A stretch of DNA of 37,804 nt from an uncultured Acholeplasmataceae bacterium (GTDB lineage: Bacteria; Bacillota_I; Bacilli_A; Acholeplasmatales; Acholeplasmataceae): contig CAKMKH010000003.1 in assembly GCA_927441705.1 (NCBI GenBank), positions 1 through 37,804 of the forward strand. The letters run 5' to 3'. The notes beneath the pieces are model-generated. The model worked only from the letters and a program-made list of their open reading frames with translations, had not been told where the DNA came from and searched no databases. Shown one piece after another: positions 2,198 to 35,104 of the stretch. The position numbers and the translations under genes are program-made. How positions within the stretch are numbered: position 1 is the first letter of the stretch; each line of letters begins with the position of its first letter.

Positions 2198-3508
2198 TTA
2201 CGGTTTTGTAACAGTTGTTGCATCAAGGGAAACATCTGTTTGAGCGTAAATCATACCAGTAATAGTAGATCCTGTGCCCATACTAACATTTGTCATTGAA
2301 AGAATAACACCTTTAAAATCTGCTCCAGTACCAACTGCTACTGTATCTGCAACAACCCAAAATACATTTGCAGGGTTAACTCCACCTGATAAAATGATTT
2401 GTGTATTTGCTGCCATACTTAATGTCCCAGCAATTTGGAAGATAAATACATCTGTCGAGCTGCCATCAAGTGTGAAATCCGTGTTAATTAAAACATCATT
2501 ACTCCACATGTATACACCACTAGTAAGTGTTCTACCACTTAGATCACCAGTATATAATTCTGTATAATCTGCAGTTCTTCCAGCTCCATCATTATATGCA
2601 CTAAGTACATCTGCGATTGCTGCTGTCAATAATGCTGGTGTCCCAAACTGATAATCAGAAGCAAATACTTGTCCTGTGACCATTGATGAAGTGGAAAATT
2701 CATTTCCACTATCCATTGTAAGTCCAAAACCAGTAATATATGATGCTGATACTGGGCTGACTCCTATGTCACCAGTAATCATTGTCACTCCAGTAGTTGA
2801 TATACCAGATTTAGCTAAAATAACAAAATTTTCCGCAGATCCTAAATCAATATTTTCTGATTCTTTAGTTCCATCTTGTTTACTATCATTAAATACATTC
2901 GTTGCAATTTCTAAAGCCTCAACAGCATCTTCAACTTCACTATCCGTGAGTGGTACTTGAGATAATGTTGTTTGTGCATTAGTAATTGCTAATTGATATG
3001 CAGCTTGAGCAGCTGCTGTTACCCATTTTACGCCTGTAGCAAACTCATCCGCACTTGCACCAACCATTGTTTGATCGATGTTTTGATTAGAAGTTGTTAT
3101 CACAGCTGCCAATGGTGCAGTGTTATCAGTAACTTGATTACTAATTGTAATCACTAATTCTGCACTTACTGATGAATTACTTTTTGAAACAGCTTTTGCT
3201 GTTACAGTTCCATTTGCTTCTGCAGTTACTAATCCGTTTGGATCAATACTTGCTGAACCTGTACCATTTGAAACTGACCAAGTAATAAGCTTGTTTGTTG
3301 CATTTGTCGGAGCAATTGTTGCAACTAATTGTAATGTTCCAATATGCTCTGTAATCGTTGTAGCAGAATCTACACCTGTCAATGTAATACCTGTAACCGA
3401 TATTGAATCATCAGTATCCTCAGTACAACCCATGATTGTAAATAACAAACTGATGGAAAGTATTACCGTTAAAATTTTCAAAACTACGTTCTTTTTTAAT
3501 ATATTCAA
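2198..3508 (-). CDS. Lipoprotein with bacterial Ig-like and ice-binding-like (DUF3494) domains
   Basis: The start is TTG at 3508, supported by AGGAG eight bases upstream. The 436-residue product has a lipoprotein signal with the lipobox ending at Cys28. Residues about 36-125 form a BIG2-type Ig-like domain (Val-Thr-Gly-Ile-Thr-Leu opening, LITWSVSNG core). Residues about 135-212 are a helical, FIVAR-like spacer. Residues about 218-435 are a DUF3494 domain, the beta-solenoid fold of bacterial ice-binding proteins, recognisable by NFVILAKSGIST, VTMITGDIGVSP and the closing VIYAQT-like turn. It is surface anchored. The fold is known both in antifreeze proteins and in adhesins of non-cold organisms, so ice binding is not implied. 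It has no obvious functional partner nearby. Confidence 0.85.
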   Translation of the reverse strand: MNILKKNVVLKILTVILSISLLFTIMGCTEDTDDSISVTGITLTGVDSATTITEHIGTLQLVATIAPTNATNKLITWSVSNGTGSASIDPNGLVTAEANGTVTAKAVSKSNSSVSAELVITISNQVTDNTAPLAAVITTSNQNIDQTMVGASADEFATGVKWVTAAAQAAYQLAITNAQTTLSQVPLTDSEVEDAVEALEIATNVFNDSKQDGTKESENIDLGSAENFVILAKSGISTTGVTMITGDIGVSPVSASYITGFGLTMDSGNEFSTSSMVTGQVFASDYQFGTPALLTAAIADVLSAYNDGAGRTADYTELYTGDLSGRTLTSGVYMWSNDVLINTDFTLDGSSTDVFIFQIAGTLSMAANTQIILSGGVNPANVFWVVADTVAVGTGADFKGVILSMTNVSMGTGSTITGMIYAQTDVSLDATTVTKP

Positions 3509-3856: not shown

Positions 3857-5758
3857 TCATTTATTATTCATCTGTAATTTATTTTCATACATCATCTTTT
3901 CTGCTTCAACAAGACAAGTATTAAGGTTAATTGAAGTATCTTTTTTACTTGCATGTCCAAATGCAATGGAGATTGCGCCATGTTCAAAATTCGTTTGTTT
4001 TGCATCGTTGCATATAAACTCTACATATGTCTTTGCATCATAATATCCTGACTTCGGTTTAATGACAACAAACTCATCTCCGCCCCATCGAGCAACTATA
4101 TCTTTTGAAGAACTATGTTTTTGTATTAATTCACTTGTTTTTTTCAACAATTCATCCCCGTGTATATGCCCATAATTATCATTGATCTCTTTAAGTCTAT
4201 TAACATCAGCAAACACAATTGATATTGGATGATCTTGTTCATGATTAAATTCTTGGATTCTCTCTTCTACATATCTACGATTATATAATCCTGTTAAGCT
4301 GTCATGATAGCTTAGATATTCAATTTGTTTTAAATAATTCGAACGATCAATCATTGAAACAAAACCAGAAATTAATATCGATATTTGTGTGATATCATCT
4401 TCTGCATAAGTAGATGGTTTATTTGCAATCAATGTGTAAAATATATCATCAGTCTCAGTTTTAAAAGATAATACAGCTGCACGCTTGACTTCATTTAAAC
4501 ATTCTATATTCAGATTTGGCAAATATTTATCTGTCTCAAAGTAATTATATACATATTGAATTTGAGTTGACTTGACTAGTGAAATGTCAATAATTTTCGC
4601 AATTATTTCTTCCATCTCTTTTTGATTATACGAAACGTTAATTTCTTCAAAATGATAAGCATTAATGCTTATCTTTCCTTGATTATTAATCGTAAACATA
4701 ACCCCGTCATGACTCTCACTTAACTTAAGTGCTTCTTCTAAGAAATAAGTATAACGTTCTTTTTCTGAATCAAACTTCTTTTCAAAGGCTTCTAGGATTA
4801 CCTGATTACTCATAGATGCCTTAACAATTTTTTCGGTTTGCGTTTTAACTTGTTTTCTAACAGTCAAAATTGATACCCCAAGAGTTACTATAATTAAAGG
4901 AACAATAAATGCAATAATGATGCCTAATAAATCTTCTATCGATCTTGTGTTGTCAATCAAAAAGGGAAACCACTCACTATAAAGTCTGTCATAAGTTCCA
5001 TTTGCTGAAACAATTGACAAACCTTCATTTAGAATTGATAATAACTCATCGTCACCTCCAACAACTGCAAAACAAAATTTTTGTTCATATCCCTCAAGGT
5101 TTAGTTTAATTTTACTAATTCCATCATCATCAAACACATATACAGGACTTACATTTGAAATGCCTTCATCAGAAATTATTTTTTCGCCAACTAATCCTTG
5201 TGCTAAAACTGCATCATAATGACCATTTGATAAAAGTCGAAATGCTTCTTTATAAGTTTGAGTAGTTGTAAGTTCTTCATCTAATCCTATTGATCTTGCA
5301 TATTCCTCTGAGTTATCACCAGATAAAACTAAAACTTGTTTTCCATATAAATCATCAACGGACTGAATTGTATCTTCACCATCTCTTACAAAAATATTTC
5401 CCCGCATCACTATATAAGGAACAGTAAAATCTAAAACCTCATCACGCTCAGGAGTATAGCCGACCAAAGGTAATATATCAAGCTCTCCATCAATTAACTC
5501 CTGTTTGATTGTTGCCCAATAATCCATTTTAAATTCTATAGTAATACCCATTTCAACAGCAACCTCTTTGAGTAACTGAATGCTAAACCCATCAGCTTCA
5601 CCATTGGTTTCCATAGAAAATGGTGGATATCCATATTCTGCAGCACTTAGATAAACCACATGATCCGATTCTGCTTTAATATTTGGATTCACATTAAAAA
5701 TAAAAACTAATGTAGATACAAATAAAAAGGCTAGTATTTTTTTTACAATAATAATCAT
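3857..5758 (-). CDS. Diguanylate cyclase with extracellular solute-binding-protein-type sensor
   Basis: The 633-residue protein has a signal/anchor at 1-29 and a family-3 amino-acid-type binding domain at about 32-262 (GYPPFSM opening, GFSIQLLKEVA, then DGELDILPLVGYTPERDEVLDFT). A membrane helix lies at 277-299 and a GAF-like region at about 334-470. A GGDEF domain follows from about 480 to the end, with the intact active site GGDEF at 559-563 and the DSLTGLYNRR entry motif. The product c-di-GMP would be made in the cytoplasm in response to an external amino acid or similar ligand. The usual inhibitory RxxD site five residues before GGDEF reads SSKD, so product inhibition through that site is unlikely. 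Start ATG at 5758 has AGGAG nine bases upstream. No EAL domain is present. Confidence 0.9.
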   Translation of the reverse strand: MIIIVKKILAFLFVSTLVFIFNVNPNIKAESDHVVYLSAAEYGYPPFSMETNGEADGFSIQLLKEVAVEMGITIEFKMDYWATIKQELIDGELDILPLVGYTPERDEVLDFTVPYIVMRGNIFVRDGEDTIQSVDDLYGKQVLVLSGDNSEEYARSIGLDEELTTTQTYKEAFRLLSNGHYDAVLAQGLVGEKIISDEGISNVSPVYVFDDDGISKIKLNLEGYEQKFCFAVVGGDDELLSILNEGLSIVSANGTYDRLYSEWFPFLIDNTRSIEDLLGIIIAFIVPLIIVTLGVSILTVRKQVKTQTEKIVKASMSNQVILEAFEKKFDSEKERYTYFLEEALKLSESHDGVMFTINNQGKISINAYHFEEINVSYNQKEMEEIIAKIIDISLVKSTQIQYVYNYFETDKYLPNLNIECLNEVKRAAVLSFKTETDDIFYTLIANKPSTYAEDDITQISILISGFVSMIDRSNYLKQIEYLSYHDSLTGLYNRRYVEERIQEFNHEQDHPISIVFADVNRLKEINDNYGHIHGDELLKKTSELIQKHSSSKDIVARWGGDEFVVIKPKSGYYDAKTYVEFICNDAKQTNFEHGAISIAFGHASKKDTSINLNTCLVEAEKMMYENKLQMNNK

Positions 5759-5981
5759 TGAGTCACGCTCCTATTGCTATTGTTCAATACAACTTTGAAA
5801 TATATAAAGGCTAGTCATCATCATGAAAACGCTTTATTATTTATCATTTAATTATACACCTTCAAAAGTGTATTTTCCAATGACTTAAGATATTTGTAAT
5901 AAAAATGAAGTATACTTTGAACTAAAAAAATTCAAAAGGTTGTTATAAATTATCATTAGATGCTCAATCATATCTTTTTTA

Positions 5982-6020
5982 TAAAAAAAGACATATCTCA
6001 AAATCTTGAAATATGTCTTT
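5982..6020 (-). terminator. Rho-independent terminator of the ato operon
   Basis: Perfect 10-bp stem AAAGACATAT/ATATGTCTTT (5988-5997 and 6011-6020) with an inner TCAA/TTGA extension. On the minus strand it is followed by a run of seven Ts. It sits just past the thiolase stop. Confidence 0.8.
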
Positions 6021-6036
6021 GTTCATCTACTAATCT

Positions 6037-7242
6037 TTAAACATTCTTAACAATAATTGCAGTCCCCATACCGCCACCTATACAAAGTGATGCTAAACCT
6101 AAATCATCCTTTCGTTTTTTAAGTTCGTGTATGAGTGTTACAACAATGCGTGCTCCACTACATCCAACAGGATGACCAATCGCGATTGCACCACCATTGA
6201 CATTCGTTTTACTTAATAAGTCATCATAGCTCACACTAAGATCAGAAGATAATTCTTTCATTACCCCGATACTTTGTGCGGCAAAAGCTTCATTTAATTC
6301 TAATAATCTTATATCATCTAGTTTTAAACCTGTACGATTTAATACATTTTTAACTGCACCAACAGGTCCTAACCCCATAAATTTAGGATCAACACCCGCT
6401 TGATCAACATCAATAATTTCGACCAATGGTTTTAAATTATATTTTTTAACTGCTTCTTCACTTGCTAGCATTACATAAGCAGCACCATCATTGATACCAG
6501 ATGCGTTACCAGCAGTAACTGATCCATCTTTTTTAAATGCTGGTCTTAATGTTGCTAGTTTTTCTAATGAAGTTTTCCTATTAGGATATTCATCCTTATT
6601 AAACAATACTAATTCTTTACCGATTTTTACCTCAATACCAACGATTTCATCATCAAAGCGACCTTCATCAACTGATTTGATTGCTTTTGTCTGTGAACTA
6701 AATGCAAACGCATCTTGTTCATCACGTGAAATGCCATGTTTTTCAGCAATATTTTCAGCAGTAATACCCATATGAATACCATCATAAGCATCGATTAATG
6801 CATCGTAAATCATATGATCGATTACTTCTAAATTTCCCATTTTATATCCGCTTCTTCCTTTTGCGGGTATTAAATGTGGTGCTTGACTCATTGATTCAGT
6901 ACCACCAGCAATAATGACATGATTCCATCCAGACTTAATCTTTAAAAATCCGTCCATAATTGCTTTCATACCAGAACCACAAACCATATTAATTGCATAA
7001 CCTGGAATTTCAACAGGAAAACCTGCTTTGATAACTACTTGACGACCGATACCTTGGCCTTGTCCAGCTGGTAATATATTTCCTGAAATCACTTCATCAA
7101 CATGTGCTGGATCAAATTTTGTATCTTCTATCAATTGTTTTACAACTTTCGCTCCAAAATCAGCGGGATGAACATTTGATAATGATCCTAAAAAACTTCC
7201 TACTGCAGTACGCTTAGCTGCAACTATATAAACCTTAGACAT
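6037..7242 (-). CDS. atoB: Acetyl-CoA C-acetyltransferase (thiolase)
   Basis: This thiolase interconverts two acetyl-CoA and acetoacetyl-CoA. The family signatures are present: the acyl-accepting Cys in NMVCGSGMKA near residue 90, NGGAIAIGHPVGCSGAR with catalytic His, and the C-terminal CIGGGMGTA with the second catalytic Cys. ATG at 7242 gives 401 residues, normal for the family, and the protein then starts MSKVYIVAAKRT as expected. An in-frame GTG at 7257 would add only five residues and overlap the previous stop. It is the last gene of the atoD-atoA-atoE-atoB run and is followed by a terminator. With the CoA-transferase it would split acetoacetate to two acetyl-CoA, or work in reverse during fermentation. 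Confidence 0.93.
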   Translation of the reverse strand: MSKVYIVAAKRTAVGSFLGSLSNVHPADFGAKVVKQLIEDTKFDPAHVDEVISGNILPAGQGQGIGRQVVIKAGFPVEIPGYAINMVCGSGMKAIMDGFLKIKSGWNHVIIAGGTESMSQAPHLIPAKGRSGYKMGNLEVIDHMIYDALIDAYDGIHMGITAENIAEKHGISRDEQDAFAFSSQTKAIKSVDEGRFDDEIVGIEVKIGKELVLFNKDEYPNRKTSLEKLATLRPAFKKDGSVTAGNASGINDGAAYVMLASEEAVKKYNLKPLVEIIDVDQAGVDPKFMGLGPVGAVKNVLNRTGLKLDDIRLLELNEAFAAQSIGVMKELSSDLSVSYDDLLSKTNVNGGAIAIGHPVGCSGARIVVTLIHELKKRKDDLGLASLCIGGGMGTAIIVKNV

Positions 7243-10758: not shown

Positions 10759-12171
10759 TTATTTAGTTTTTAAATATTCATTTTTGAGTTTAAAGATGTA
10801 GTTTTTTGGATTTCTTACATAATAGATGCGTTTAATGAATTTCATAATATCATCAGGATTATTAGATGGAATCACAAAATCAGCAACTTCTATAGCTTCA
10901 GGTTCTGCATTCATTAGTGCAATAGAGTAATCGCTGTTTCTCATCATATCAACATCAAATGATTTCGAACCAAAAGCAATCACAAGTTTTTCTTTATGTT
11001 TGCTTAAAAAATCATCAAGTGCAATCTTTTTTGATGTTTTTGATGCAAATATCTTTAAAAAATAATAACCATCTTTTAAAGAATATGGATAGATTTGACA
11101 AGAAATATCATTCTGGTATAGTTTTAATAAATCCTTTGAATATTGATCAACTTTTGTCTTTTGATCAATTAAAATATAAAACACAACTTCTTCTGTGTGA
11201 CTCACTCTACCTTTAATATGATTTCTAAAATAGTCATTTTTTCGATCTAGATAAAATTTTTCTTCAGCTTCATTTTCAAATATTGTATGATATATAGATA
11301 AAGCTTGATCGACAATAGAATAACTAAATATATTACGATTTATTATAGAAAAATAATCATCTATACCTTTTTGTGTATGTTTCGGTATATGTTTTACATC
11401 AAGAAATTTTTCATTTTGCATGTCATAACTAACAGCACCATTCATAATCATTAATTCTAATTTTAATGGAATACCATATAAAATCTTGGATAATGATGCT
11501 GGTGTTCTCGTTGTTGAAATCGTAAAATTAAGACCATCCTTAAGTAATGTAGTTAATGTATAAGTCGAAAATGGTGTTAACTTTTTATCAGCTGTCAATA
11601 AGCATTGATCTAATCCACTAACAAATAATATATCTTTATTTCTAAACCTAATTAGATGAAAATTATTGATCATTAAAGTTATTAAAACTCCTATGATTGT
11701 TGATGAAATACGATTAATTGCAAACGGCACGACAGGTAAATTATTTCTTAGCGATATAGTGACACTCAAATATGTAAGTGCAGCTACAAATACAAGATCG
11801 TGTTGTTTAAATCTCACAAGTATTGAGATTAAAACAATAATAAACAAAGCGGCAAACATATACAGTACAAACATATTCATAAAAGATCCATATCTATCTA
11901 ATATGATGTCACTTAAAACTGCTTCATAAAAGAGTATAAGACTCATACCAAAAAGACCTCCAAAAATGGATCCTAAAGATCTTATTTTTGCAAGTGCAAA
12001 TGATTTCGAGTTTTCACGCTGCATTGAATAAACCGCAGCTATTCCAGCAAAAAATGGTGAATACCATGTGGACGCAAATTCAGGTGAAATCAAATATAAA
12101 ATAAGATTTATGATTAATGTTATAAGTACTGCTATAGCTGTTTTTATGTTACGTTGCCCAATTTTTAACAT
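10759..12171 (-). CDS. FUSC/aromatic-acid-exporter-type membrane domain fused to a degenerate HAD domain
   Basis: Residues 1-170 of this 470-residue protein carry about six membrane helices in the pattern of the ArAE/FUSC family (Y-S-P-F-F-A-G-I-A-A-V-Y-S near residue 37-49, then a repeated NRISSTIIGVLITL). Residues about 178-460 follow the layout of a Cof-type HAD phosphatase, but the catalytic signature is lost. Motif I reads SGLDQCLL at 185-192, so the nucleophile Asp is Gly186. Motif IV reads FGSKSFDVDMM near 400-410, so GDxxND has become GSKSFD. The Thr of motif II (220) and the Lys of motif III (378) remain. I infer that the HAD part is a ligand-binding or regulatory module. The gene is divergent from the B12/GGDEF pair at 12361. 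Confidence 0.75.
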   Translation of the reverse strand: MLKIGQRNIKTAIAVLITLIINLILYLISPEFASTWYSPFFAGIAAVYSMQRENSKSFALAKIRSLGSIFGGLFGMSLILFYEAVLSDIILDRYGSFMNMFVLYMFAALFIIVLISILVRFKQHDLVFVAALTYLSVTISLRNNLPVVPFAINRISSTIIGVLITLMINNFHLIRFRNKDILFVSGLDQCLLTADKKLTPFSTYTLTTLLKDGLNFTISTTRTPASLSKILYGIPLKLELMIMNGAVSYDMQNEKFLDVKHIPKHTQKGIDDYFSIINRNIFSYSIVDQALSIYHTIFENEAEEKFYLDRKNDYFRNHIKGRVSHTEEVVFYILIDQKTKVDQYSKDLLKLYQNDISCQIYPYSLKDGYYFLKIFASKTSKKIALDDFLSKHKEKLVIAFGSKSFDVDMMRNSDYSIALMNAEPEAIEVADFVIPSNNPDDIMKFIKRIYYVRNPKNYIFKLKNEYLKTK

Positions 12172-12360: not shown

Positions 12361-13392
12361 ATGGATAAATATATGTTACCTATGGACATTTTCAAAAATA
12401 AAGAAGATATTGCCATGCAAATATACAAACAAGATTTAGCAAGTAATCCCTCTTTAGTCCAAATAAAAGATAAATACTTACAAGATACCATCTATACACT
12501 GAGATTTCTAAGTACTTCACTTGAAGTTGGAGAACCTCTAATTTTTGCTAATTATATGAAATGGTTTGGTTCATTAGCTAATTACTTACATTTTAATCTA
12601 GATGCAATGAAGCACCATTTCGAAATATCCACAAATATCTATAAAAAGTCATTTAGTCAAGAATTATTAGAATTAAGCATGCATACCTATAAATTAGGTA
12701 TAGACTCATTTGAACAGTCATTTTTATTAAATAAACCTACAGTGGTTGATTATGATGACTTTCTAAATTATCTAATTGCAATGGATAGCGACCAAGCCTA
12801 TCAATATGTGTTAAAACATGTTGATGCTGGTATGGATTTAAAAGAAGTTTATTTAAATATATTGCAACCAACTTTATACAAAGTTGGTGATTTATGGCAG
12901 CAACGCGTCATCACAGTCGCTAAAGAACACTACATAACAGCAGCAATTCAACATATCATCGGTAAACTTTATTCTAAACTCTTCACATATAAGGAATCTT
13001 CTAGATATTCAATGACTGCAGTATGTGCCGGAAATGAACTACATGAAATAGGTATGCGTATGGTTGCAGACTTCTTTGAATTATCTGGATGGGATTCAAT
13101 CTATTTAGGTTCTAATATTCCAGTTTCAACTATTATTGATCAACTCTTAGAAAGACCGACGCACTTAGTCGCAATTTCAGCAACGACTTCTTCTCAACTC
13201 ATTGAAGTAAGAGATTTAATAAGAAAAATCAAATCAAATCCTAGTCTAAAATATACTAAAATCATTGTTGGTGGACGAGTTTTCAATGAAACGCCACTTT
13301 TATGGAAGACACTTGGCGCTGACGGTAACGCACTTGATGCAGAACAAGCTGTTATTTTGGGAGCTCTTTTAGTTGGTGAAAGCTATGAGTAA
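12361..13392 (+). CDS. CarH-like cobalamin-binding protein, putative B12 photoreceptor
   Basis: Residues about 1-120 of this 343-residue protein are a helical domain that is not a MerR DNA-binding domain. Residues about 130-205 form the four-helix B12 cap, and about 215-340 the Rossmann-type B12-binding domain. The signature W-x9-E-H of the CarH photoreceptor family is present exactly (Trp179, Glu189, His190). The lower-ligand motif reads ELHEIG with His228, like the E-x-H-x-x-G of CarH. In CarH these residues hold adenosylcobalamin and allow green-light sensing. The residue after the Trp, which is the His used for the photoproduct in Thermus CarH, is Gln180 here. The gene overlaps a diguanylate cyclase gene by eight bases, so it probably controls c-di-GMP synthesis. 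Start ATG has AGGAGG nine bases upstream. Confidence 0.85.
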   Translation: MDKYMLPMDIFKNKEDIAMQIYKQDLASNPSLVQIKDKYLQDTIYTLRFLSTSLEVGEPLIFANYMKWFGSLANYLHFNLDAMKHHFEISTNIYKKSFSQELLELSMHTYKLGIDSFEQSFLLNKPTVVDYDDFLNYLIAMDSDQAYQYVLKHVDAGMDLKEVYLNILQPTLYKVGDLWQQRVITVAKEHYITAAIQHIIGKLYSKLFTYKESSRYSMTAVCAGNELHEIGMRMVADFFELSGWDSIYLGSNIPVSTIIDQLLERPTHLVAISATTSSQLIEVRDLIRKIKSNPSLKYTKIIVGGRVFNETPLLWKTLGADGNALDAEQAVILGALLVGESYE

Positions 13393-14362
13393 ACCAAATA
13401 TTAAAGATTTTATGTTAGTCATTGATGAATCAAATATTATTGTTTCTGTATTTCCGAGTGAATCAGAATTTTCGAGTTTTATCAACAAAAAAGTTGAATC
13501 AATCATTACTCAAGAATCAATAACTGATTTCCAAAATTTTATTCAAGATCTTAATCAAAAAAATGCCGCACTCCATCATCAGATAATACTGAATTTTTCA
13601 GACATAAACTACAGTTGCCATATTAACGGCTATAAAGATGAAAAAACAAGCCTTATATTCGCTTTATTTAATACATCAAGCGATGAAGAAATATATAAGA
13701 AAATGATGCATCTAAACAGCCAGCAAGTTAATGAACTTCGTATGTTAAGAAAAAACATGCAGCTACAAGAAAATCAAATCTATGATGAAATTTCAAAATT
13801 AAACAGTGAATTACTTAACTCAAAACGCATTATTGAAAAACAAAATTCAGAACTGCAAAGATATAATAAATTATTGAAACAAATGTCAATCGAAGACTCT
13901 TTAACAGGATGTTATAATAGAAGATACTTCTACGATTATATGAAAGAATCTATACTTCCATCTCAAAAAGATGTAATTCACAGTTTAGTTATGATAGATT
14001 TTAATAATTTTAAAACAGTTAATGATCAATTCGGACATGATGCAGGTGATCGCCTACTTATAAATTTTGTAATCCTTACAAAAGATGCTATCAAGGAAAA
14101 AGGTGAAATTTTTCGAATAGGCGGAGATGAGTTCATCATTATTTTTTATGATATGGATAAAGAAGAGGTATCTACTTATATGACTAAAATCAATAATACA
14201 TTCTCATCTAACTCAAAAATAGCTAGTCTTTCATATGGTATTGTAACATTTAATGAAAGTGAGCTTAATCATGAATTTGATTTATCAAATTTGGTAAATA
14301 AGACTGATGAATTGATGTATATAGATAAAAAATATTATAAGAAAAATAAAGAATCAAAATAA
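13385..14362 (+). CDS. Cytoplasmic diguanylate cyclase with PAS-like domain
   Basis: ATG at 13385 is used; it overlaps the preceding gene in ATGAGTAA, giving 325 residues. An in-frame TTG at 13373 is less likely. Residues about 5-100 look like a PAS-type sensor fold, 104-165 a coiled coil, and 165-320 a GGDEF domain with DSLTGCYNRR and the intact GGDEF site at 246-250. The inhibitory RxxD site is absent (KEKG in its place). There are no membrane segments, so signalling must come from a soluble partner. The overlapping upstream B12-binding protein is the obvious candidate. A bidirectional terminator follows. Confidence 0.9.
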   Translation: MSKPNIKDFMLVIDESNIIVSVFPSESEFSSFINKKVESIITQESITDFQNFIQDLNQKNAALHHQIILNFSDINYSCHINGYKDEKTSLIFALFNTSSDEEIYKKMMHLNSQQVNELRMLRKNMQLQENQIYDEISKLNSELLNSKRIIEKQNSELQRYNKLLKQMSIEDSLTGCYNRRYFYDYMKESILPSQKDVIHSLVMIDFNNFKTVNDQFGHDAGDRLLINFVILTKDAIKEKGEIFRIGGDEFIIIFYDMDKEEVSTYMTKINNTFSSNSKIASLSYGIVTFNESELNHEFDLSNLVNKTDELMYIDKKYYKKNKESK

Positions 14363-20069: not shown

Positions 20070-20858
20070 TTATGTTGGATTTTCTTGATAATACTTAAGT
20101 AATTCTCCCCTAGTGATTAAAGCTTGAAAGTAATAGCTACTTGTCGTATGACTACAACCAAAATCAATTAATCGATTTTCTTGATCATAGACTCTATTTG
20201 TAGATTGAATACTTGCTGCATGTTTACGTTCACCTAAAAGTAATGCAAGGTCATCTGTTAAATTAACTGCTTTAGTAATACGACGTGATAATTTAGCTTT
20301 AATATTATATTCTTTTGCGATATATGCATTAAGCGGTTCAGTTCCATTAAACTTCTTATCCATATCTTTAAATATAGATAAAGGTAAGTAGTTTTCTAAA
20401 ATGATAATTGCCTTATCGTTTCCCTTATATATACGATTAATATAGAGAAATGTTTCGTTTGTCTTAAATCCCATTTCTTTACATTTTTCATCACTAACAG
20501 TGATGACTTTTTTTTCTAAACACTCAATTGAAGGTTCCATACCTAAAGCTTTAATAGCATCATAGATGGCAACATTTCGATAAAAGAAATAATTTGTTAG
20601 TTCATAATAAGCTACTAAATAAACATCTGAACTGACTTTTTTTAAGAAACGTTCTTCTACCAATTTGTCATGTGCCAATTCTACTAGTGATACATCAACT
20701 TTTAAACTTTCCGCTAATTGAATAGGTGATGGTACTTGTGACTGATAATAAAATGTCTGATCTAAAATGTTAGCCTTAATGCTCTCTTTAATTTGTTCAT
20801 TAATAGGAACCGATGAACGTCTATCAATGGTGATAAAATCCACTCTATTAGATTGCAT
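20070..20858 (-). CDS. GntR/UTRA-family protein with degenerate DNA-binding domain
   Basis: This 262-residue protein has a GntR-like N-terminus and a UTRA ligand-binding domain at about 85-245 (FLYINRIYKGNDKAIIILENYLPLSIF, then SIQSTNRVYDQENRLIDFG). The winged helix is poorly conserved. The recognition helix reads VDVSLVELAHDKLVEE, lacking the usual SRxTVRxAL arginines, and the wing SSDVYLV replaces G-K-G-T-F-V. It may bind DNA weakly, recognise an unusual site, or act with its neighbour as a heterodimer or sensor. It overlaps the second GntR gene by 11 bases and is the last gene of the sulfoquinovose run. Confidence 0.85.
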   Translation of the reverse strand: MQSNRVDFITIDRRSSVPINEQIKESIKANILDQTFYYQSQVPSPIQLAESLKVDVSLVELAHDKLVEERFLKKVSSDVYLVAYYELTNYFFYRNVAIYDAIKALGMEPSIECLEKKVITVSDEKCKEMGFKTNETFLYINRIYKGNDKAIIILENYLPLSIFKDMDKKFNGTEPLNAYIAKEYNIKAKLSRRITKAVNLTDDLALLLGERKHAASIQSTNRVYDQENRLIDFGCSHTTSSYYFQALITRGELLKYYQENPT

Positions 20859-21591
20859 GAACCATCACCTCGAATTCTGTAAATTCTCCAGGGAAATAAT
20901 TCGAAACATATCCAATGATTCGATCTTGTTCATCAATCATATTTGAACGGACAAAATAGATTGCATCATCAGTATTTACTCTTAATAATAAAGCTTCATC
21001 TGAAGAGGCATTAATAGGATTAAACGTATTATGCATATGCTTAATAGGATAACCATATTTCAGTTCTACTAAATCAAAAAGACGATCCGATGATTCAAAT
21101 CGGTGATTCAAATCCGGAAAATATTTTTGTGGGAAATATATTTTTTGAAATAGGACTGGATTTTGATTTGCTTTGATAATGCGTAATATTAAATAGCATG
21201 GTTCATTTCTATCTAGTTTAAGCATCCGATAAGCAACAATATCATAATCGATCAAATCGACCATAATAAGTTGATAAGTATAATTCATAGCACTTTCTGT
21301 CATACGACCATCAAATTGATAAAATTCATTTAATGGTGTATGCAAGTGATAACGATTTGTAACAAAAGTACCTTTACCTTTGATACGCTTAATCATCTGT
21401 TCAAAGATTAATGTCTCATATGCCATCTTAACAACAGTTGGACTAATCGAAAACATGCGACAAATTTCCTTTTCTGTCGGAAGACGATCATTATACTTAA
21501 GCAAGCCTTGATGAATCGCATCAGTAATGGAATTTGATATTTGCTTGTAGATAGGCACTTTTAGTGTCTTGTCAACGAAAATATAATCCAT
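20848..21591 (-). CDS. GntR/UTRA-family transcriptional regulator, likely of the sulfoquinovose operon
   Basis: ATG at 21591 (MDYIFVDK) gives a normal GntR start of 247 residues. An in-frame ATG four codons upstream has no ribosome site at proper spacing. The winged helix is intact (VPIYKQISNSITDAI, LPTEKEICRMFSISPTVVKMAYETL, wing IKGKGTFVTNR). The UTRA domain covers about 80-240 (YLILRIIKANQNPVLFQKIYFP). UTRA domains bind small metabolites, often sugars. I infer that it responds to SQ or an intermediate and represses the operon. A possible own -10 (TATAAT) lies in the 68-base gap before it. Confidence 0.88.
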   Translation of the reverse strand: MDYIFVDKTLKVPIYKQISNSITDAIHQGLLKYNDRLPTEKEICRMFSISPTVVKMAYETLIFEQMIKRIKGKGTFVTNRYHLHTPLNEFYQFDGRMTESAMNYTYQLIMVDLIDYDIVAYRMLKLDRNEPCYLILRIIKANQNPVLFQKIYFPQKYFPDLNHRFESSDRLFDLVELKYGYPIKHMHNTFNPINASSDEALLLRVNTDDAIYFVRSNMIDEQDRIIGYVSNYFPGEFTEFEVMVHAI

Positions 21592-21659
21592 GATTATACA
21601 CATCCTATTCTAAAAACCCGAATTACAACTTAAAAACACTTATTTATATTATATATGAT

Positions 21660-22553
21660 TTAAATAGTTTTTGGAACATTTAGTTTTTCAAGAAGCTTGC
21701 CAACCATACGAGGACGTTCAGCAACTAATGCCCCTGCTTCAGTTAGTGCTTTCACCTTATCTTCTACAGAACCTTTGCCGCCTGTAATAATAGCTCCAGC
21801 ATGTCCCATTTTTTGTCCTTTAGGTGCTGTTCTACCACCTAAAAAAGCTACTAAAGGTTTTGTGAATGTACCATTTGTGATAGCCTCAGCCACTTCTTCT
21901 TCCATAGTACCACCTAATTCGCCAATAATAACAACAGCATTGGTTTGTTCGTCTTTTTCATAAAAGGGTAACATCTCTGCAAAACGAGTTCCAGGCACTG
22001 GATCTCCACCAACACCAATAAGTGTTGATACGCCATATCCTGCTTCTACAATCATCGCAGTTACTTCGTTAGTTAGTGATCCACTTCTAGTCATCACTCC
22101 AATATTACCTATTTTATAAACTCGATCGATCCAATGTGGAAAACTTCCCATCATCGCTACTTCTGGTGAAATAACACCAGATGTATTTCCACCTACAACA
22201 AATGCATTGTGTTCTTTAGCTGCTTGACGAATAAGTATCATATCATGTAGAGGAATGCCATCTGCAATCGTCACAATCTTTTTTATATCAGCATCTAAGG
22301 CTTCCATAACCGCATCCTTAGTGAGTCTCGGTGGTACAAATAACATCGTTGCATCTATATCATGATTTTTCACTGCGCGTTTAACTGTATGATAAACTGG
22401 TAATCCTTCAACAGTTTGTCCTTCTTTACCTGGGGTAACACCACAAATAACTTGTGTGCCTAGATCAATCATATGTTTAGTCCAAAAACTACCTTCTGTG
22501 CCAGTGATTCCTTGAACGAGAACTTTTGTTTTTCCATCAATGAATATACTCAT
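21660..22553 (-). CDS. SucD-like acid-CoA ligase alpha subunit, putative sulfoacetate-CoA ligase
   Basis: This is the 297-residue alpha subunit of an ADP-forming acyl-CoA synthetase. The CoA-binding Rossmann part has VQGITGTEG and VICGVTPGKEG. The phosphorylated His is His251 in MGHAGAIITGGKGS. Relative to true succinyl-CoA synthetase, the usual N-C-P-G loop near the active site reads N-T-S-G (about 123-126), which could mark a different acid. It follows the acylating aldehyde dehydrogenase and SucC-like gene with a four-base overlap and no other citric-acid-cycle gene is nearby. I infer conversion of sulfoacetyl-CoA + ADP + Pi to sulfoacetate + ATP, as in the SqwKL pair I recall from the sulfo-TK pathway. 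Confidence 0.82.
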   Translation of the reverse strand: MSIFIDGKTKVLVQGITGTEGSFWTKHMIDLGTQVICGVTPGKEGQTVEGLPVYHTVKRAVKNHDIDATMLFVPPRLTKDAVMEALDADIKKIVTIADGIPLHDMILIRQAAKEHNAFVVGGNTSGVISPEVAMMGSFPHWIDRVYKIGNIGVMTRSGSLTNEVTAMIVEAGYGVSTLIGVGGDPVPGTRFAEMLPFYEKDEQTNAVVIIGELGGTMEEEVAEAITNGTFTKPLVAFLGGRTAPKGQKMGHAGAIITGGKGSVEDKVKALTEAGALVAERPRMVGKLLEKLNVPKTI

Positions 22554-23674
22554 GATTGGTCTCCTTTCGAAAGCTTCACTGCTTTTCTAACTGCTTCTTC
22601 AGTATCAAATAAAGGTTCTAAACCTGCTGCTCTTAACATTTCAACTGCTTCTTGTTCATTAGTACCTCTAATACAGGTAACAATTGGGCGATCTGGTTTT
22701 AAACGTTTAATAGCATCGACAATACCTTCAGCCATAACGTCAGCTCGTGCTATTGTTCCAAAAGTAACGATTAAAATTACTTTTGAAGGTACTTTTAAAC
22801 ATATTTCCATTGCTTTTACAGCTTTTTTATAATTAGGACCACCAAATTCCAAATAATTTGCAACAGTCCCACCTTCATAATTAATTAAATCATAAACTGT
22901 TGTAGTTAATCCTGCTCCAGCGCACATCAATCCAATATCACCATCAAATTGTATAAATGGAATGCCTTCTTGCATTGCATCAAATTCAGCTTCAGTGCGA
23001 TAATCTTCAATCGATTGTTGATAACGCTCATGTCTAAAAACTGAGTTATCATCAATCATCAATTTACCATCACCAGCAACTAATGCTTTATCTTTTGTTA
23101 TAAATAAAGGATTAACCTCTACCAATTCACAATCATATGTTCTAAACACATGATATAGTTTCATTAAAAACTTTGACATTAATTTTGCTAACTCTGGATT
23201 AAATCCTAGATCATAAGCTACTTGTAAAGCTTGAAAAGACATAAGTCCATATCTTAGATCGATAGGTTGTTTAATAATTTTTTCTGGTTGTGTTACAGCT
23301 AATGTTTCAATATCAATACCACCTTCACTACTTGCAATTAAAAGACCTGTTGCTTGGTAAGGATCAACTGTTATAGAAACATATATTTCTTTATCGATAG
23401 CAATTGCTTGTTCGATAAGTAATTTCTTAATTTTTAAAGGATGTTCAAAAAGTCTATTAACTTCATTTTTCGCATCTTCTTTTGTTTTAACAAAGGAAAT
23501 TAATCCAGCTTTACCTCTACCGCCACTTAAAACTTGTGATTTCACAACTAATGGTAATCCAACTTGCGTAATTGCATCATCTAGTTCAGAACTTGATTCT
23601 ATTAAAACACTATTAGGTATGGTAATGCCTGCTTCTTTAAAAACTTCTTTTGCTTGATATTCATAAAGTTTCAT
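22550..23674 (-). CDS. SucC-like acid-CoA ligase beta subunit, putative sulfoacetate-CoA ligase
   Basis: This is the 374-residue beta subunit partner with an ATP-grasp domain: YEYQAKEVFKEAGI at the start, KSQVLSGGRGKAGLI for nucleotide binding, VEVNPLF for magnesium, and the CoA-ligase domain with GDIGLMCAGAGLTTTVYD. The length is normal for SucC-type subunits (about 380). It forms a heteromer with the SucD-like protein. Position after the acylating dehydrogenase points to substrate-level phosphorylation from sulfoacetyl-CoA. Ordinary succinyl-CoA synthetase is the alternative but does not fit the neighbours. Confidence 0.82.
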   Translation of the reverse strand: MKLYEYQAKEVFKEAGITIPNSVLIESSSELDDAITQVGLPLVVKSQVLSGGRGKAGLISFVKTKEDAKNEVNRLFEHPLKIKKLLIEQAIAIDKEIYVSITVDPYQATGLLIASSEGGIDIETLAVTQPEKIIKQPIDLRYGLMSFQALQVAYDLGFNPELAKLMSKFLMKLYHVFRTYDCELVEVNPLFITKDKALVAGDGKLMIDDNSVFRHERYQQSIEDYRTEAEFDAMQEGIPFIQFDGDIGLMCAGAGLTTTVYDLINYEGGTVANYLEFGGPNYKKAVKAMEICLKVPSKVILIVTFGTIARADVMAEGIVDAIKRLKPDRPIVTCIRGTNEQEAVEMLRAAGLEPLFDTEEAVRKAVKLSKGDQS

Positions 23675-23683
23675 AGCATCCTC

Positions 23684-25087
23684 CTACTTAGTTTTTTTTA
23701 AATATGATCCAAAAATATCATCATCACTTGGGCGTTTAGGCTCAAAATACTCAGAAAGCCAAGTCACGTTAAGGAAATGTTTGTAATTAATATTTTCTGT
23801 TGTAATATTACCACCCCATGAACCACAACCTAGCGACACTGTCGATGGCATGCCGTTAAAAAACGCCCCACCATTTGCAGGTGCTTGTGCCTGGTTAACA
23901 ACGATTCTACTAGATTTCATATAGACTCCAAGATGATGAATATATGCTTGATTATTCGTGTGAATACCACAAGAATGTCCTGTACCATAATTATCTGTTA
24001 GACGTTCAAGCATCTTAAATCCCTCTTTAAAAGTATCATACTTAAATACTGTTAAAACTGGAGATAGTTTCTCTTGAGAAAAGAAATCTGATTCAATATC
24101 ATCTGCACCTTTTACTAAAAGCACTTTAATGTCATCGCCAACTTGTATTCCAACTTCACCAGCTATTTTTTTTGCAGATTGTGCTACTATTTGTCCATTA
24201 ATAGAGCGATATCCTTTAGCATTTGTTGGCCACATATACCAAGAAAGTAATTCTCTTTCTTTTTCATTAGCCATATAGCTACCTAATCTTATTAATTCTT
24301 CAATCAATTGATCATATATTGATGAGTGAATAATGATTGAATTTTCGCTTGAACATGAAGTTGCATAATCGAATTTTTTACTCAAAAAGATTTTTGCAGC
24401 AGCATCTTTAACGTCTGCATCTTCTGCAACAATTTGAACTGAATTTCCTGGTCCTACGCCATAAGCTGGACGACCTGATGAATAAGCAGCTTTGACCATT
24501 GCTCCACCACCTGTCGCAAGCACAACATCTACTTGCTTCATTAATTCATTAGTAAGTTCGATTGAAGGTTCTTCTATAATTTGGATTAAATCCATTGGTG
24601 CATTAACTTTTTTTAGTCCATCACGCATAAAGTCAACGGCCATTTTAGAAGAAATTTTAGCTTTTGGATGCGGAGCGAAAATAACAGCATTTCTACCTTT
24701 TAGAATAGTCACTGCATTACTAGCTGGTGTAGCAGTAGGATTAGTTACAGGAGTAAGAGCCCCGACAACACCAACAGGTTTTGCATATTTTTTTATTTTT
24801 TTAATCTCATCAGTTTCTATTAAACCAACAGATTTTTTACCTCTTGTATCATCTAGTACGCCAAGTACTTTATTTTTATGTTTTGCGATTTTATCTAATA
24901 CATTCCCCATGCCAGTCTCTTCGACAGCTTTTTCAGCTAGTTTAGCAATATTTTCATCATTGTATACTTCCCAACCTATCGCTACACACACCTCATCAAT
25001 TTGTTCTTGAGTGTAATGTTCGATTTGTTGTTGAGCAATTCTAGCTTTATTTATATATTCTTGAATAATAGTTTTTGCGTCTTGCAT
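23684..25087 (-). CDS. sqwD: CoA-acylating aldehyde dehydrogenase, putative sulfoacetaldehyde dehydrogenase
   Basis: This 467-residue member of the EutE/AdhE-N/SauS group oxidises an aldehyde to its acyl-CoA with NAD(P). Visible are GALTPVTNPTATPASN (109-124), the GPGNS turn near 212-216, and the catalytic Cys245 in YATSCSSENSI. No alcohol-dehydrogenase domain is fused. No microcompartment shell genes or encapsulation peptide neighbours are present, so it is not part of an ethanolamine or propanediol organelle. Between the transketolase and the SucCD-like ligase its expected substrate is sulfoacetaldehyde, giving sulfoacetyl-CoA. The symbol follows my memory of the sulfo-TK literature. Substrate is inferred. 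Confidence 0.82.
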   Translation of the reverse strand: MQDAKTIIQEYINKARIAQQQIEHYTQEQIDEVCVAIGWEVYNDENIAKLAEKAVEETGMGNVLDKIAKHKNKVLGVLDDTRGKKSVGLIETDEIKKIKKYAKPVGVVGALTPVTNPTATPASNAVTILKGRNAVIFAPHPKAKISSKMAVDFMRDGLKKVNAPMDLIQIIEEPSIELTNELMKQVDVVLATGGGAMVKAAYSSGRPAYGVGPGNSVQIVAEDADVKDAAAKIFLSKKFDYATSCSSENSIIIHSSIYDQLIEELIRLGSYMANEKERELLSWYMWPTNAKGYRSINGQIVAQSAKKIAGEVGIQVGDDIKVLLVKGADDIESDFFSQEKLSPVLTVFKYDTFKEGFKMLERLTDNYGTGHSCGIHTNNQAYIHHLGVYMKSSRIVVNQAQAPANGGAFFNGMPSTVSLGCGSWGGNITTENINYKHFLNVTWLSEYFEPKRPSDDDIFGSYLKKTK

Positions 25088-25099
25088 ATTTTTGCCTCC

Positions 25100-26341
25100 T
25101 TATAATATAATGTTTAACATGTTCATCAGCCATAAGAGCAAAGCAACAAATATCAATGCTAAAAATGACGCAATGAATAAATCTTTAAATAACTTCTTTT
25201 TATCAACAGTTTCTGGCGAACTAGCAAGAGCTAGAGCACCCATTGTTGAAAAAGGACTAACGGTTACAATATGTGAAGCAACCGCAATTGTAATTGTTAA
25301 GACAGTTGGTGAAACAACTTGACCAAGTTCACTAGATAATTGAACTGTTGTAGGAATAAGGGTTGGCATTACTACACCGACTGCTGAAGAAAATATTGAC
25401 ATAACACCTGATAAAACTGCTAGAATAGGTACTGCGGTTTGCTCGCTCATCAAACTAGCTAAAAAAGTAGTTAATAAACGTACTCCACCTAGTTCATCTG
25501 CAACTCGTATTAATACTGCAGTTCCACAGATTAATAAAATTGTAGACCATGGCACATTTTTAATTGCTTGATTTTGATCAGCTGTTTTAAACAATAACAG
25601 AAATGCTGAAAGTGCAAATGCTGCGAAACCTACATTCACTTTTCCTATCATAACCCAAGCAACCAAAACTAAAATAGTAACTAGCGTAAGTATTTGGTGT
25701 TTGTTAAAACGTCCTGGAGTTTCTACTACAACTTTGTCTCCTCTAAGTTTAAGTCCACCTAATACTATGAAGACTAAAGCAGAAAATAAAGTCATAACAA
25801 GTACATTATTAAAATAAATATGAAATCCTAAATCTCCTACACCATTTGCTTTAGCAAGTTCAAGTGCCACAATTCCATTAGGAGCTAATGGTGATAAACC
25901 TCCAGCAATTGAACCTAAAATAATCAAAATACTCACCATTAATACTGATATGTTAGCTGAAAAAGCTATGATTAATCCAATAGGTAGCAACAAAGCACTT
26001 GTTGAAATATTCCCAGGACCAACAGAAGCTAAAACTAAAGCTAAGATATAAAAAATTATTGGAATAAGGATTTTTTTACCACGACTTTGATTGATAATTG
26101 TCTTTGATAATTTTTCTAGTGTCCCATTCAATTTTGCAATACTAAATAAGAATGTAATCCCAAACGTTGTAAAAAATAATGACATAGGCCAATAAGAAAT
26201 AATAGTATTGATTGGGATACCACCGAGATAATATCCGACGAACAGTGCAAAGACTAATGCAATCAATCCAACGTTTATATCTTTCCAAAATCCGATGATA
26301 ATGGCAACGACGATGGCTAATAAAGAGATAATTTCAATCAT
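25100..26341 (-). CDS. SLC13/MatC-like anion transporter, candidate sulfoacetate exporter
   Basis: This 413-residue protein has about 11 hydrophobic segments and a MatC/SLC13-like pattern: an N-terminal block with FFTTFGITFLFSIAK, then ASVGPGNISTSALLLP and SIAGGLSPLAPNGIVA. The matching second half has FSSAVGVVMPTLIPT and SHIVTVSPFSTMGALAL. The family carries dicarboxylates and related anions. It sits in the middle of the catabolic genes, after the RpiB-like gene and before the acylating dehydrogenase. The only organic product of the inferred pathway that needs disposal is sulfoacetate, a dianion. I therefore infer export of sulfoacetate. Uptake of an anion is the alternative. Confidence 0.72.
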   Translation of the reverse strand: MIEIISLLAIVVAIIIGFWKDINVGLIALVFALFVGYYLGGIPINTIISYWPMSLFFTTFGITFLFSIAKLNGTLEKLSKTIINQSRGKKILIPIIFYILALVLASVGPGNISTSALLLPIGLIIAFSANISVLMVSILIILGSIAGGLSPLAPNGIVALELAKANGVGDLGFHIYFNNVLVMTLFSALVFIVLGGLKLRGDKVVVETPGRFNKHQILTLVTILVLVAWVMIGKVNVGFAAFALSAFLLLFKTADQNQAIKNVPWSTILLICGTAVLIRVADELGGVRLLTTFLASLMSEQTAVPILAVLSGVMSIFSSAVGVVMPTLIPTTVQLSSELGQVVSPTVLTITIAVASHIVTVSPFSTMGALALASSPETVDKKKLFKDLFIASFLALIFVALLLWLMNMLNIIL

Positions 26342-26367
26342 AGTTGTTAAATCCTTTCAAATTTGAT

Positions 26368-26847
26368 CTATTTATGGAAACTACGTTTTTCGATCTCTCT
26401 AACAATAACGCGAGCTTTTTCTAAATTTTTTGCACGCCAGTCTTCAAGATTTTGTGTGAATGAAGTATCTAAAAATGCTTTTGTCATCTCAACACCCATA
26501 ATCGGAGCAATTAGCCATCCACCCATACATAATACGTTTGCATCATTTATAGCACGACATTTTTCTGCTGCATAAACAGACTCACATGCTGCTGCGTATA
26601 CGCCTTCATGTTTGTTTGCGACAACAGACATACCCATGCCTGTTCCACAAATCAAAATGCCACGTTCATAAGTTTTATTTTGAATCAAATGTGCACCTTT
26701 TTCTGCTACTTCAAAGAAAGGTAGTGCATTCTCTTCATCAATAGTTCCAATATCTTCAACTTCATAATTATTTTCATTAAGATAAACTTTAATTGCTTCT
26801 TTAAGAGCAAATCCAGATTTATCAGATCCTAAAAATATTTTTTTCAT
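26368..26847 (-). CDS. sqwI: RpiB-family isomerase, putative 4-deoxy-4-sulfoerythrose isomerase
   Basis: This 159-residue RpiB/LacAB-fold enzyme keeps the catalytic base region CGTGMGMS with Cys67. Two residues used on ribose-5-phosphate are changed. The DHxG motif is Asp9-Lys10-Ser-Gly, so the usual His is Lys. The HND motif is Ile100-Asn-Asp, so the His tied to sugar ring opening is Ile. Both changes fit a substrate without phosphate and unable to form a furanose ring, as 4-deoxy-4-sulfoerythrose is. It overlaps the transketolase C-subunit gene by four bases. In the sulfo-TK pathway SqwI converts sulfoerythrose to sulfoerythrulose between the two transketolase steps. The symbol is from memory. 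Confidence 0.82.
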   Translation of the reverse strand: MKKIFLGSDKSGFALKEAIKVYLNENNYEVEDIGTIDEENALPFFEVAEKGAHLIQNKTYERGILICGTGMGMSVVANKHEGVYAAACESVYAAEKCRAINDANVLCMGGWLIAPIMGVEMTKAFLDTSFTQNLEDWRAKNLEKARVIVREIEKRSFHK

Positions 26848-27815
26848 TTCAATTTATCTCCTTTGCAACAATGATTTTTTCTATCAAGAACTCTTAATGC
26901 AGCATCAACGATGTTTTGTGCTTTAAGTCCAAATTTTTCCATAAGAAAGTCTTTTTTACCAACTTCACCAAAATGATCTTTAACACCAACACGTTCCATT
27001 GGTGTAGGACAATTTTCAGCTAAAACTTCAGCAACAGCACTACCTAAACCATTAATAATATTATGGTTTTCTGCAGTAACTACAGCTTTAGTTAATTTTG
27101 CTTCTTTGATGATTGCTTCAGCATCAATTGGCTTAATGGTGTGAATGTTAATTACACTTGCAGAAATACCTTTTTCTTTTAATATTGCTTGTGCATCTAA
27201 TGCTTCTTTGACCATAATCCCTGATGCAAATATTGATAAGTCTGTTCCTTCAATAATAGTTGTAGCTTTACCTAATTCAAATTTTTGATTGTCTTCAAAT
27301 ATTTCGTCAAATTCTTGACGTAATAATCTTATATACACTGGTCCATTATGTTTGATAATTTGAGGGAACATTGCGGCAAGTTGAACACCATCAACTGGTT
27401 CATAAATTGTCATCCCTGGTAAATTTCTCATTAACCCTACATCTTCTAATGACATATGAGTGCCACCATTAAGTTGTGCCATGATTCCAGGATCTGACCC
27501 TACCATTTTCACATTAAGTTGTGCATATGCAACCGATAATGTTACTTGATCAAATACACGACGTGTTGCAAATGGTGTGAATGTATGCGTAAATGGTAAC
27601 TTACCCATATTAGCTAATCCAGCAGCAACCCCAATCATATTTGCTTCTGCTACTCCAACATTAATAGATCGTTCTGGAAATGCTTCAAAAAAAGCATTTG
27701 TTTTTAAAGCTTTCATTAAATCAGCTTCTACGATAACTAGTTCTGGATATTCTTTCGCATATTTTATAAGTAAATCAACATAAATGTCTCTTAATTGTCT
27801 ATTTCTAAGTTCCAT
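26844..27815 (-). CDS. sqwH: Transketolase C-terminal subunit, putative sulfofructose transketolase
   Basis: This 323-residue subunit holds the pyrimidine-binding and C-terminal domains of a split transketolase. The TPP-activating glutamate is Glu57 in NVGVAEANMIG, and THTFTPFATRRVFDQV is typical of the Pyr domain. The last third is the transketolase_C domain (ALDAQAILKEKGISASVINIHTIKPID). Both halves together match the usual length. In this operon it should act with the N-subunit on sulfofructose and then on sulfoerythrulose, moving two-carbon units to glyceraldehyde-3-P. Letter assignment between the two subunits is from memory and may be swapped. Confidence 0.85.
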   Translation of the reverse strand: MELRNRQLRDIYVDLLIKYAKEYPELVIVEADLMKALKTNAFFEAFPERSINVGVAEANMIGVAAGLANMGKLPFTHTFTPFATRRVFDQVTLSVAYAQLNVKMVGSDPGIMAQLNGGTHMSLEDVGLMRNLPGMTIYEPVDGVQLAAMFPQIIKHNGPVYIRLLRQEFDEIFEDNQKFELGKATTIIEGTDLSIFASGIMVKEALDAQAILKEKGISASVINIHTIKPIDAEAIIKEAKLTKAVVTAENHNIINGLGSAVAEVLAENCPTPMERVGVKDHFGEVGKKDFLMEKFGLKAQNIVDAALRVLDRKNHCCKGDKLK

Positions 27816-27817
27816 AA

Positions 27818-28630
27818 TTATTTCAGCCCTCCAATTGCTTCTTCTGCCATTTCTTTTGTAACTGGCATGTTGTGTGATCCTGCTGTATTTTCACAGAATG
27901 CTGCGCCTTTGCCTTTAATCGTATTACATATGATCATTGAAGGTTTTCCCTTTGCAGCTTTTGCATTTAATATTGCTTGTTCTATTGCGATAACATCATG
28001 TCCATCAATAACTTGGACATGCCAGTTAAATGCTTCCCATTTTTTATCTAATGGATAAACATCGTTAACTTGATTTACAGCACCATCAATTTGAAATTTA
28101 TTATAATCTGTAAATGCGATTAAATGATCTAATTTTCTATTTCCAGCAAACATTGCTGCTTCCCAAATTTGACCTTCTTGAGATTCACCATCTCCAATGA
28201 TTGCATAAACTTTAAATGGTGCGTTATCTATTTGTGCTGCAGTTGCCATACCAACTGCTGCTGAAAATCCTTGACCTAAAGACCCTGTTGTCATATCAAC
28301 ACCAATCGTCTTATTTTTATCCATATGTGATGGAAGGTCTGTATTTGAAATATTTAATGTATCTAATAATTCAATTGGAAAATACCCTTTTAATGCAAGT
28401 GTTGAATATGCCGCAGGTCCACCATGACCTTTTGATAGAACAAAACGGTCTCTATTTGGCATTTTTGGATCTTTTGGATCAACATTCATTTGATCAAAAT
28501 ACAATACTGTAAGAATATCAGCGATTGAAAGACTTCCTCCAATGTGACCAACACCTAATGTTGCAATACAATTAATCGTTAACTTTCTAATCTCTCTTGC
28601 TTTTTCTTCTAAAAATAATCTTTTATCCAT
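27818..28630 (-). CDS. sqwG: Transketolase N-terminal subunit, putative sulfofructose transketolase
   Basis: This 270-residue thiamine-diphosphate (PP) domain subunit has GHIGGS with His29, SKGHGGPA with His69, and the TPP/Mg motif GDGESQEGQIWEA at 146-158 ending with Asn177. It is separated by two bases from the C-subunit gene, so the two form one split enzyme. Two-subunit transketolases are common in Firmicutes for specialised pathways, while the housekeeping enzyme is usually one chain. Position between an SQ isomerase and an RpiB-like isomerase supports use on sulfonated sugars instead of the ordinary pentose phosphate cycle. Confidence 0.85.
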   Translation of the reverse strand: MDKRLFLEEKAREIRKLTINCIATLGVGHIGGSLSIADILTVLYFDQMNVDPKDPKMPNRDRFVLSKGHGGPAAYSTLALKGYFPIELLDTLNISNTDLPSHMDKNKTIGVDMTTGSLGQGFSAAVGMATAAQIDNAPFKVYAIIGDGESQEGQIWEAAMFAGNRKLDHLIAFTDYNKFQIDGAVNQVNDVYPLDKKWEAFNWHVQVIDGHDVIAIEQAILNAKAAKGKPSMIICNTIKGKGAAFCENTAGSHNMPVTKEMAEEAIGGLK

Positions 28631-28639
28631 GTTCTCCTC

Positions 28640-29980: not shown

Positions 29981-30003
29981 ATAATCTCCTTTTCTTTTGG
30001 GTT

Positions 30004-30041
30004 GTTTGCTTAACCAGAATAGATATACTGGCTAAACAAAC
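30004..30041 (-). repeat. Intercistronic hairpin 2, before the isomerase gene
   Basis: A 14-bp stem (GTTTGCTTAACCAG at 30004-30017 against 30028-30041) with two positions that are G-U or mismatched and a 10-base loop. It lies shortly before the isomerase ribosome site. Confidence 0.65.
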
Positions 30042-30060
30042 AGTCCAAAATTTAATCGAT

Positions 30061-30086: not shown

Positions 30087-30113
30087 AAAGATCTCATTTT
30101 TTATCAATTTAAA

Positions 30114-31319: not shown

Positions 31320-31366
31320 ACTTTCCTCCTAAATTTTTTTATAATTAACTGTGAAATTCACAGCGA

Positions 31367-35093: not shown

Positions 35094-35104
35094 GATAACC
35101 TCGT

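Follow-up and report, generated by a model that had tools for sequence, protein, structure and literature searches.

A photocobilin-like globin-B12 receptor gene overlapping the gene of a GGDEF-domain partner in a Mollicute

The two-gene locus

The window, by which we mean the whole stretch of 37,804 nucleotides analysed here, belongs to an uncultured member of the Acholeplasmataceae (Mollicutes), in agreement with the Mollicutes-like organism proposed by the first-pass annotation. It carries an isolated unit of two co-directional genes, with an ArAE/HAD gene diverging on one side and a DEAD-box helicase gene converging on the other. The first gene (12361-13392, + strand), referred to below as the receptor, encodes 343 aa and is preceded by AGGAGG, a good Shine-Dalgarno sequence. 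The second gene, its partner, extends from an ATG at 13385 to 14362 (+ strand, 325 aa), the ORF list beginning at an upstream TTG (13373), and overlaps the end of the receptor gene by 8 bp. The following features were located:

12361..13392, + strand: photocobilin-like receptor gene, 343 aa (globin, four-helix cap, B12 Rossmann domain)
12361..12744, + strand: N-terminal photoglobin/phycobiliprotein-type globin domain, residues 1-128 (family profile)
12475..12486, + strand: Y39-L-Q-D42, where the CXRD/CXQD bilin motif would lie, Cys absent (alignment)
12562..12564, + strand: W68, invariant (35/35), aligned with SasPcob Trp296
12754..12969, + strand: four-helix cap, B12-binding_2 (Pfam)
12895..12930, + strand: W179-x9-E189-H190, with Q180 at the CarH His132 position (sequence motif)
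12997..13374, + strand: B12-binding Rossmann domain (Pfam, model, fold comparison)
13036..13053, + strand: E226-x-H228-x-x-G231, lower axial ligand motif (sequence motif)
13385..14362, + strand: partner gene (PAS-like, coil, GGDEF), overlapping the receptor gene by 8 bp
13406..13669, + strand: PAS-like domain, homologous to that of the histidine-kinase partners (model topology, hhalign)
13682..13891, + strand: conserved coiled coil, NSQQVNELR ... LNSELLNSKRIIEKQN (sequence, hhalign, model)
13892..14332, + strand: GGDEF domain, catalytic GGDEF at 14120-14134, K-E-K-G at the RxxD site (Pfam)

The flanking gene at 10759-12171 (- strand) encodes a fusion of an ArAE_1/FUSC (aromatic acid exporter-like) membrane domain and a HAD-type hydrolase. 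Also on the - strand of the window are a GGDEF domain fused to a family-3 solute-binding domain, a candidate ligand-sensing cyclase (3857-5758), a bacterial Ig-like domain on an ice-binding-like protein (2198-3508), and a sugar/dicarboxylate catabolic cluster (20070-35782) that includes two GntR/UTRA regulators in tandem as well as a DUF4867 protein (35105-35782).

B12 and globin domains of the receptor

The Pfam domains B12-binding_2 (residues 132-203, 3e-14) and B12-binding (residues 219-330, 1e-16) both match the receptor well over their cut-offs. The two motifs on which the first-pass annotation was built, W-x9-E-H and ExHxxG, are present as W179-x9-E189-H190, with Q180 following the Trp, and E226-L-H228-E-I-G231. 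W-x9-EH was conserved in all 35 full-length relatives, whereas some 33 other B12 domains from the same searches (non-family proteins, of short corrinoid-type and mutase size) and 580 non-B12 ORFs all lack it; it is thus not a chance occurrence. From the light signature defined by SignatureFinder, the receptor carries GxxW (G176-x-x-W179), EH (E189-H190) and GxxxP (G250-x-x-x-P254); the GxxH element is lacking, as its Gly, present in some relatives, is replaced by N225. Relatives of the receptor were absent from viral contigs, and the matches in phage collections cover only the B12 domain. The genome also encodes a second B12 protein of 216 aa (L032, G000:C23:8982-9536), which has ExHxxG but lacks W-x9-EH, adjoins a permease-like gene and is conserved in the genus.

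The protein had been described as CarH-like with a helical, non-MerR N-terminus. A B12 domain of photoreceptor type was confirmed, but its closest kin are the photocobilins: the model of the B12 domain is nearest to them in VIA-align (Z 25.0 and 24.5, versus 19 for CarH), a comparison that bears on the B12 part, its list being filled by B12 domains. Membership of CarH was rejected based on the missing MerR domain, on Q180 in the place of His132, which forms the bis-His light state of CarH, and on a NCBIfam CarH score of 38.6 bits against a cut-off of 400. The same Gln had been read as a hint of different photochemistry. This reading was not retained: SasPcob, a proven AdoCbl photoreceptor with an aquo/hydroxo light state, has Gln at the equivalent position (PMC11796333, PMC10979010), and Gln180 therefore needs no unknown photochemistry.

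The N-terminus is all-helical in the predicted model, as annotated at first; what had been missed is its identity as a phycobiliprotein-type globin. A family profile built from 34 relatives and compared with the PDB matched, at E < 0.01, only the globins of SasPcob (2.4e-5) and AbDPcob (2.2e-4) and allophycocyanin-type phycobiliproteins (best 6.8e-5), and a smaller profile gave the same matches. Pfam PF00502 (Phycobilisome) matches five of the 34 relatives singly (best 1.9e-8), and gave no match with the window protein or in a search of its own genome; the sequence of this globin has diverged too far to be recognised by Pfam on its own, and the case for a globin rests on the family profile. 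By sequence and model, the receptor is thus photocobilin-like with the globin in front of the B12 domain, and not a CarH protein.

According to the alignment, D42 corresponds to Asp270 and W68 to Trp296 of SasPcob, residues that bind biliverdin and corrin, Trp296 contacting both the corrin and bilin ring D. W68 is found in 35/35 and D42 in 30/35 relatives, while the bilin-attaching Cys is absent from all 35, with Tyr (Y39) in the window protein. We infer that covalent bilin use is absent from the Mollicute and anaerobe branches, in which the globin would be kept mainly for the corrin and possibly for partner contact. Unlike these 35 proteins, the globin-B12 receptors of Azospirillum and Skermanella (L086, L087, L088) keep the Cys of the bilin motif as CVED; L087 is located on a plasmid of Azospirillum brasilense Sp7 (3947-6316).

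The GGDEF partner and conservation of the gene pair

The overlapping gene was correctly recognised at first pass as encoding a soluble PAS-GGDEF protein. Its GGDEF domain matches Pfam PF00990 with 96.6 bits (2e-27), and the metal/GTP motifs and signature of a predicted diguanylate cyclase are intact (DFNNFKTVND, GHDAGD, GGDEF); the RxxD product-inhibition site is absent from the sequence, which reads K-E-K-G. No PAS family of Pfam matches the partner, and the PAS-like assignment is based on its AlphaFold model, which displays the topology b-b-a-a-a-b-b-b (pLDDT mostly 82-90) followed by a long coiled coil and the GGDEF domain. The best fold match of this model is a LOV-activated diguanylate cyclase (PDB 8C05), followed by SiaD (PDB 7E6G).

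The gene pair, which the first-pass annotation had proposed to look for elsewhere, recurs in other genomes. An adjacent co-directional output gene, mostly overlapping, accompanies 32 of the 35 full-length receptors, and encodes a GGDEF-domain protein in 27 cases (16 with GGDEF, 11 with A/SGDEF) and a histidine kinase in five; of the remaining three, one has its partner cut by the contig end, one is followed by a coil protein only (L047) and one has no recognisable partner (L049). The partner is a GGDEF protein in Acholeplasmataceae and other Bacilli, and mostly a histidine kinase in archaea, Chloroflexi, spirochaetes and Azospirillum, including A. brasilense Sp7, where the receptor is paired with a kinase; the Skermanella receptor has no partner downstream. 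Outputs were exchanged, judging by the receptor tree, where the clade with kinase partners includes an actinomycete whose partner is a GGDEF protein. The front ends of the two partner types are homologous (hhalign probability 99.4, E 2.5e-21 across PAS-like domain and coil), and the swap of the output while this front end stayed is as expected of a docking surface. The recurring pair and its homologous PAS-like/coil front point to direct protein-protein control with an exchangeable output; these comparisons of sequence support direct docking, without proving it. The genus itself shows decay or loss of the pair: a close congener (G004) has a receptor gene interrupted by in-frame stops and a truncated partner (L012, L060).

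The genome of 1.76 Mb yielded 21 GGDEF and six EAL matches, from which we conclude that this Mollicute has a dense c-di-GMP network, and no PilZ effector was found in it.

Proposed switch, alternatives and known systems

On balance we favour the view that the receptor and its GGDEF partner probably constitute a split, two-protein photocobilin-type switch, in which cofactor binding, light response, contact and cyclase control are predicted properties. In its favour are the conserved motifs, the photocobilin-like fold of the B12 domain, the globin homology, the recurring gene pair with its homologous partner fronts, the co-occurrence with the AdoCbl-forming enzyme PF01923 detailed below, and the published photocobilin control of a cyclase. 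The receptor would bind AdoCbl between the helical cap and the Rossmann domain, with His228 below the corrin, Trp179 and Glu189-His190 around the adenosyl group, and the front globin packed through W68 over the corrin edge; bilin would probably not be used. In the dark, the AdoCbl form may hold one oligomeric state and dock on the partner at its PAS-like/coil front. Green light, or a lack of AdoCbl, would remove the adenosyl group and change the assembly of the receptor, thereby shifting the coiled-coil register and, with it, GGDEF dimer activity. Light cleavage of AdoCbl is reported to alter the assembly of photocobilins and the rate of a cyclase, whether fused to them or supplied separately (PMC10979010). 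Fused AbDPcob gives a light-activated cyclase, by more than tenfold, and AdoCbl-only SasPcob, acting in trans, activates the cyclase in the dark and inhibits it in the light (PMC10979010). As the latter is the nearer analogue, dark-active c-di-GMP synthesis would be at least as likely here as light-active synthesis. Several observations speak against this split switch: the GxxH element of the strict light signature is replaced at N225, light is of doubtful relevance for the methanogens and sediment anaerobes that have the same pair, and partners can be incomplete (L049, Skermanella, the coil-only L047) or the pair decayed in a congener (G004).

Methanogens and other anaerobes, which may live without light, also have relatives of the receptor. 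This would suit a sensor of AdoCbl level, in which the receptor reports AdoCbl supply, binds no other cobalamins and sets c-di-GMP, light sensitivity being incidental. Such a sensor would also fit the strong co-occurrence with the AdoCbl-forming enzyme PF01923, which is present in the window's own genome; among the class genomes, 22 of the 24 that carry the receptor encode this enzyme, compared with 74 of the 371 that lack the receptor (Fisher p 7e-13, genomes being counted as independent despite their kinship). We regard an AdoCbl-level sensor as unlikely, though it is the most serious rival, since the receptor shares its motif with proven light receptors, the other B12 proteins compared do not have it, and photolability is expected of AdoCbl bound in this way. 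Still less probable is a dual-chromophore photocobilin, whose globin would take up biliverdin or another linear tetrapyrrole as well, obtained by scavenging or from an unrecognised enzyme, and which would respond to red as well as green light. Asp42 and Trp68 match the bilin contacts of SasPcob, but the bilin Cys is missing from all 35 relatives, and AbDPcob keeps its globin though bilin binding is weak. Heme oxygenase PF01126, through which alone heme degradation was sought, went undetected in all of the roughly 36 genomes encoding a globin-B12 receptor (25 + 13, two counted twice; Azospirillum and Skermanella left out), which makes a biliverdin supply for the receptor globin doubtful. In two genomes with heme oxygenase, the B12 protein at this locus has no globin (L051, L054).

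That the two proteins are co-transcribed yet independent, the partner sensing its own ligand untouched by the receptor, seems very improbable: the PAS-like domain could bind such a ligand and a few relatives are without a partner, but the pairing was kept through output swaps across Bacilli, Chloroflexi, archaea, spirochaetes and Proteobacteria. We give hardly any credence to a corrinoid methyl carrier serving a methyltransferase, with the GGDEF gene as chance neighbour. NCBIfam matches to MttC/MtbC-type corrinoid proteins are weak, and this class was rejected at 49.5 bits where the cut-off is 215.3, with GGDEF, ArAE/HAD and helicase genes as neighbours; W-x9-EH is present, a methyltransferase gene is absent alongside, and the GGDEF/kinase pairing is conserved across phyla.

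Beyond this locus, we tentatively suggest, with somewhat less than even confidence, a widespread, exchangeable two-protein module of anaerobes, Mollicutes and archaea, in which the globin of a photocobilin-type receptor, without covalent bilin and either bilin-free or carrying an unrecognised tetrapyrrole, would serve as corrin cover and docking part and steer PAS-like/coil kinase or cyclase partners. Photocobilin control of diguanylate cyclases, fused or in trans, has already been published (PMC10979010), which lowers the novelty of the pair; the same paper groups photocobilins by the position of the B12 domain at the N- or C-terminus, so the globin-B12 order is not new either. A two-protein B12-globin sensor in genomes without detected heme oxygenase appears to be new, and its novelty lies in the two-gene form with interchangeable output, the occurrence in a Mollicute and in methanogens, and a globin without detected heme oxygenase. 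The pair would extend B12 photobiology to Mollicutes and to methanogens, poses the question of what a phycobiliprotein-type globin does in such genomes, and, as a natural two-component (trans) photocobilin-cyclase, would be easier to test and engineer than fusions. A. brasilense Sp7, with its kinase pair and kept bilin Cys, offers a cultured host for comparison.

Among known systems, the photocobilins SasPcob and AbDPcob (PDB 8J2W/8J2X/8J2Y; PMC10979010) share with the receptor a B12 domain with W-x9-EH and E/DxH, a photoglobin and the absence of the bilin Cys; SasPcob also shares the Asp and Trp of the bilin pocket and the Gln after the Trp. Diguanylate cyclase control would also be shared, by fusion in AbDPcob, in trans with SasPcob and presumably in trans here. 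In contrast to the receptor, their globin follows the B12 domain, the cyclase of AbDPcob is fused instead of being a separate, co-translated PAS-like/coil/GGDEF protein, and here the genome has no detected heme oxygenase. The photoglobin family (Schneider et al. 2022, PMC8717448, as described in PMC10151467) also combines a globin of the phycobiliprotein branch with a B12 domain, and has a CXQD motif where the receptor, having lost the Cys, has YLQD. CarH/LitR proteins have the same AdoCbl pocket (W-x9-EH) and His lower ligand, but differ by their MerR HTH, bis-His partner and DNA output, the receptor having neither a MerR HTH nor the bis-His pair (Q180) and a predicted enzyme output. Similar to the SiaC-SiaD system (PDB 7E6G), a separate small protein would act on a coiled-coil/GGDEF cyclase, although SiaC is not a B12 protein. 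The LOV-activated diguanylate cyclase (PDB 8C05) has the same layout of PAS fold, coil and GGDEF as the partner, whose PAS-like domain lacks the flavin-binding NCRFLQ; the chromophore would sit in the other protein, the receptor.
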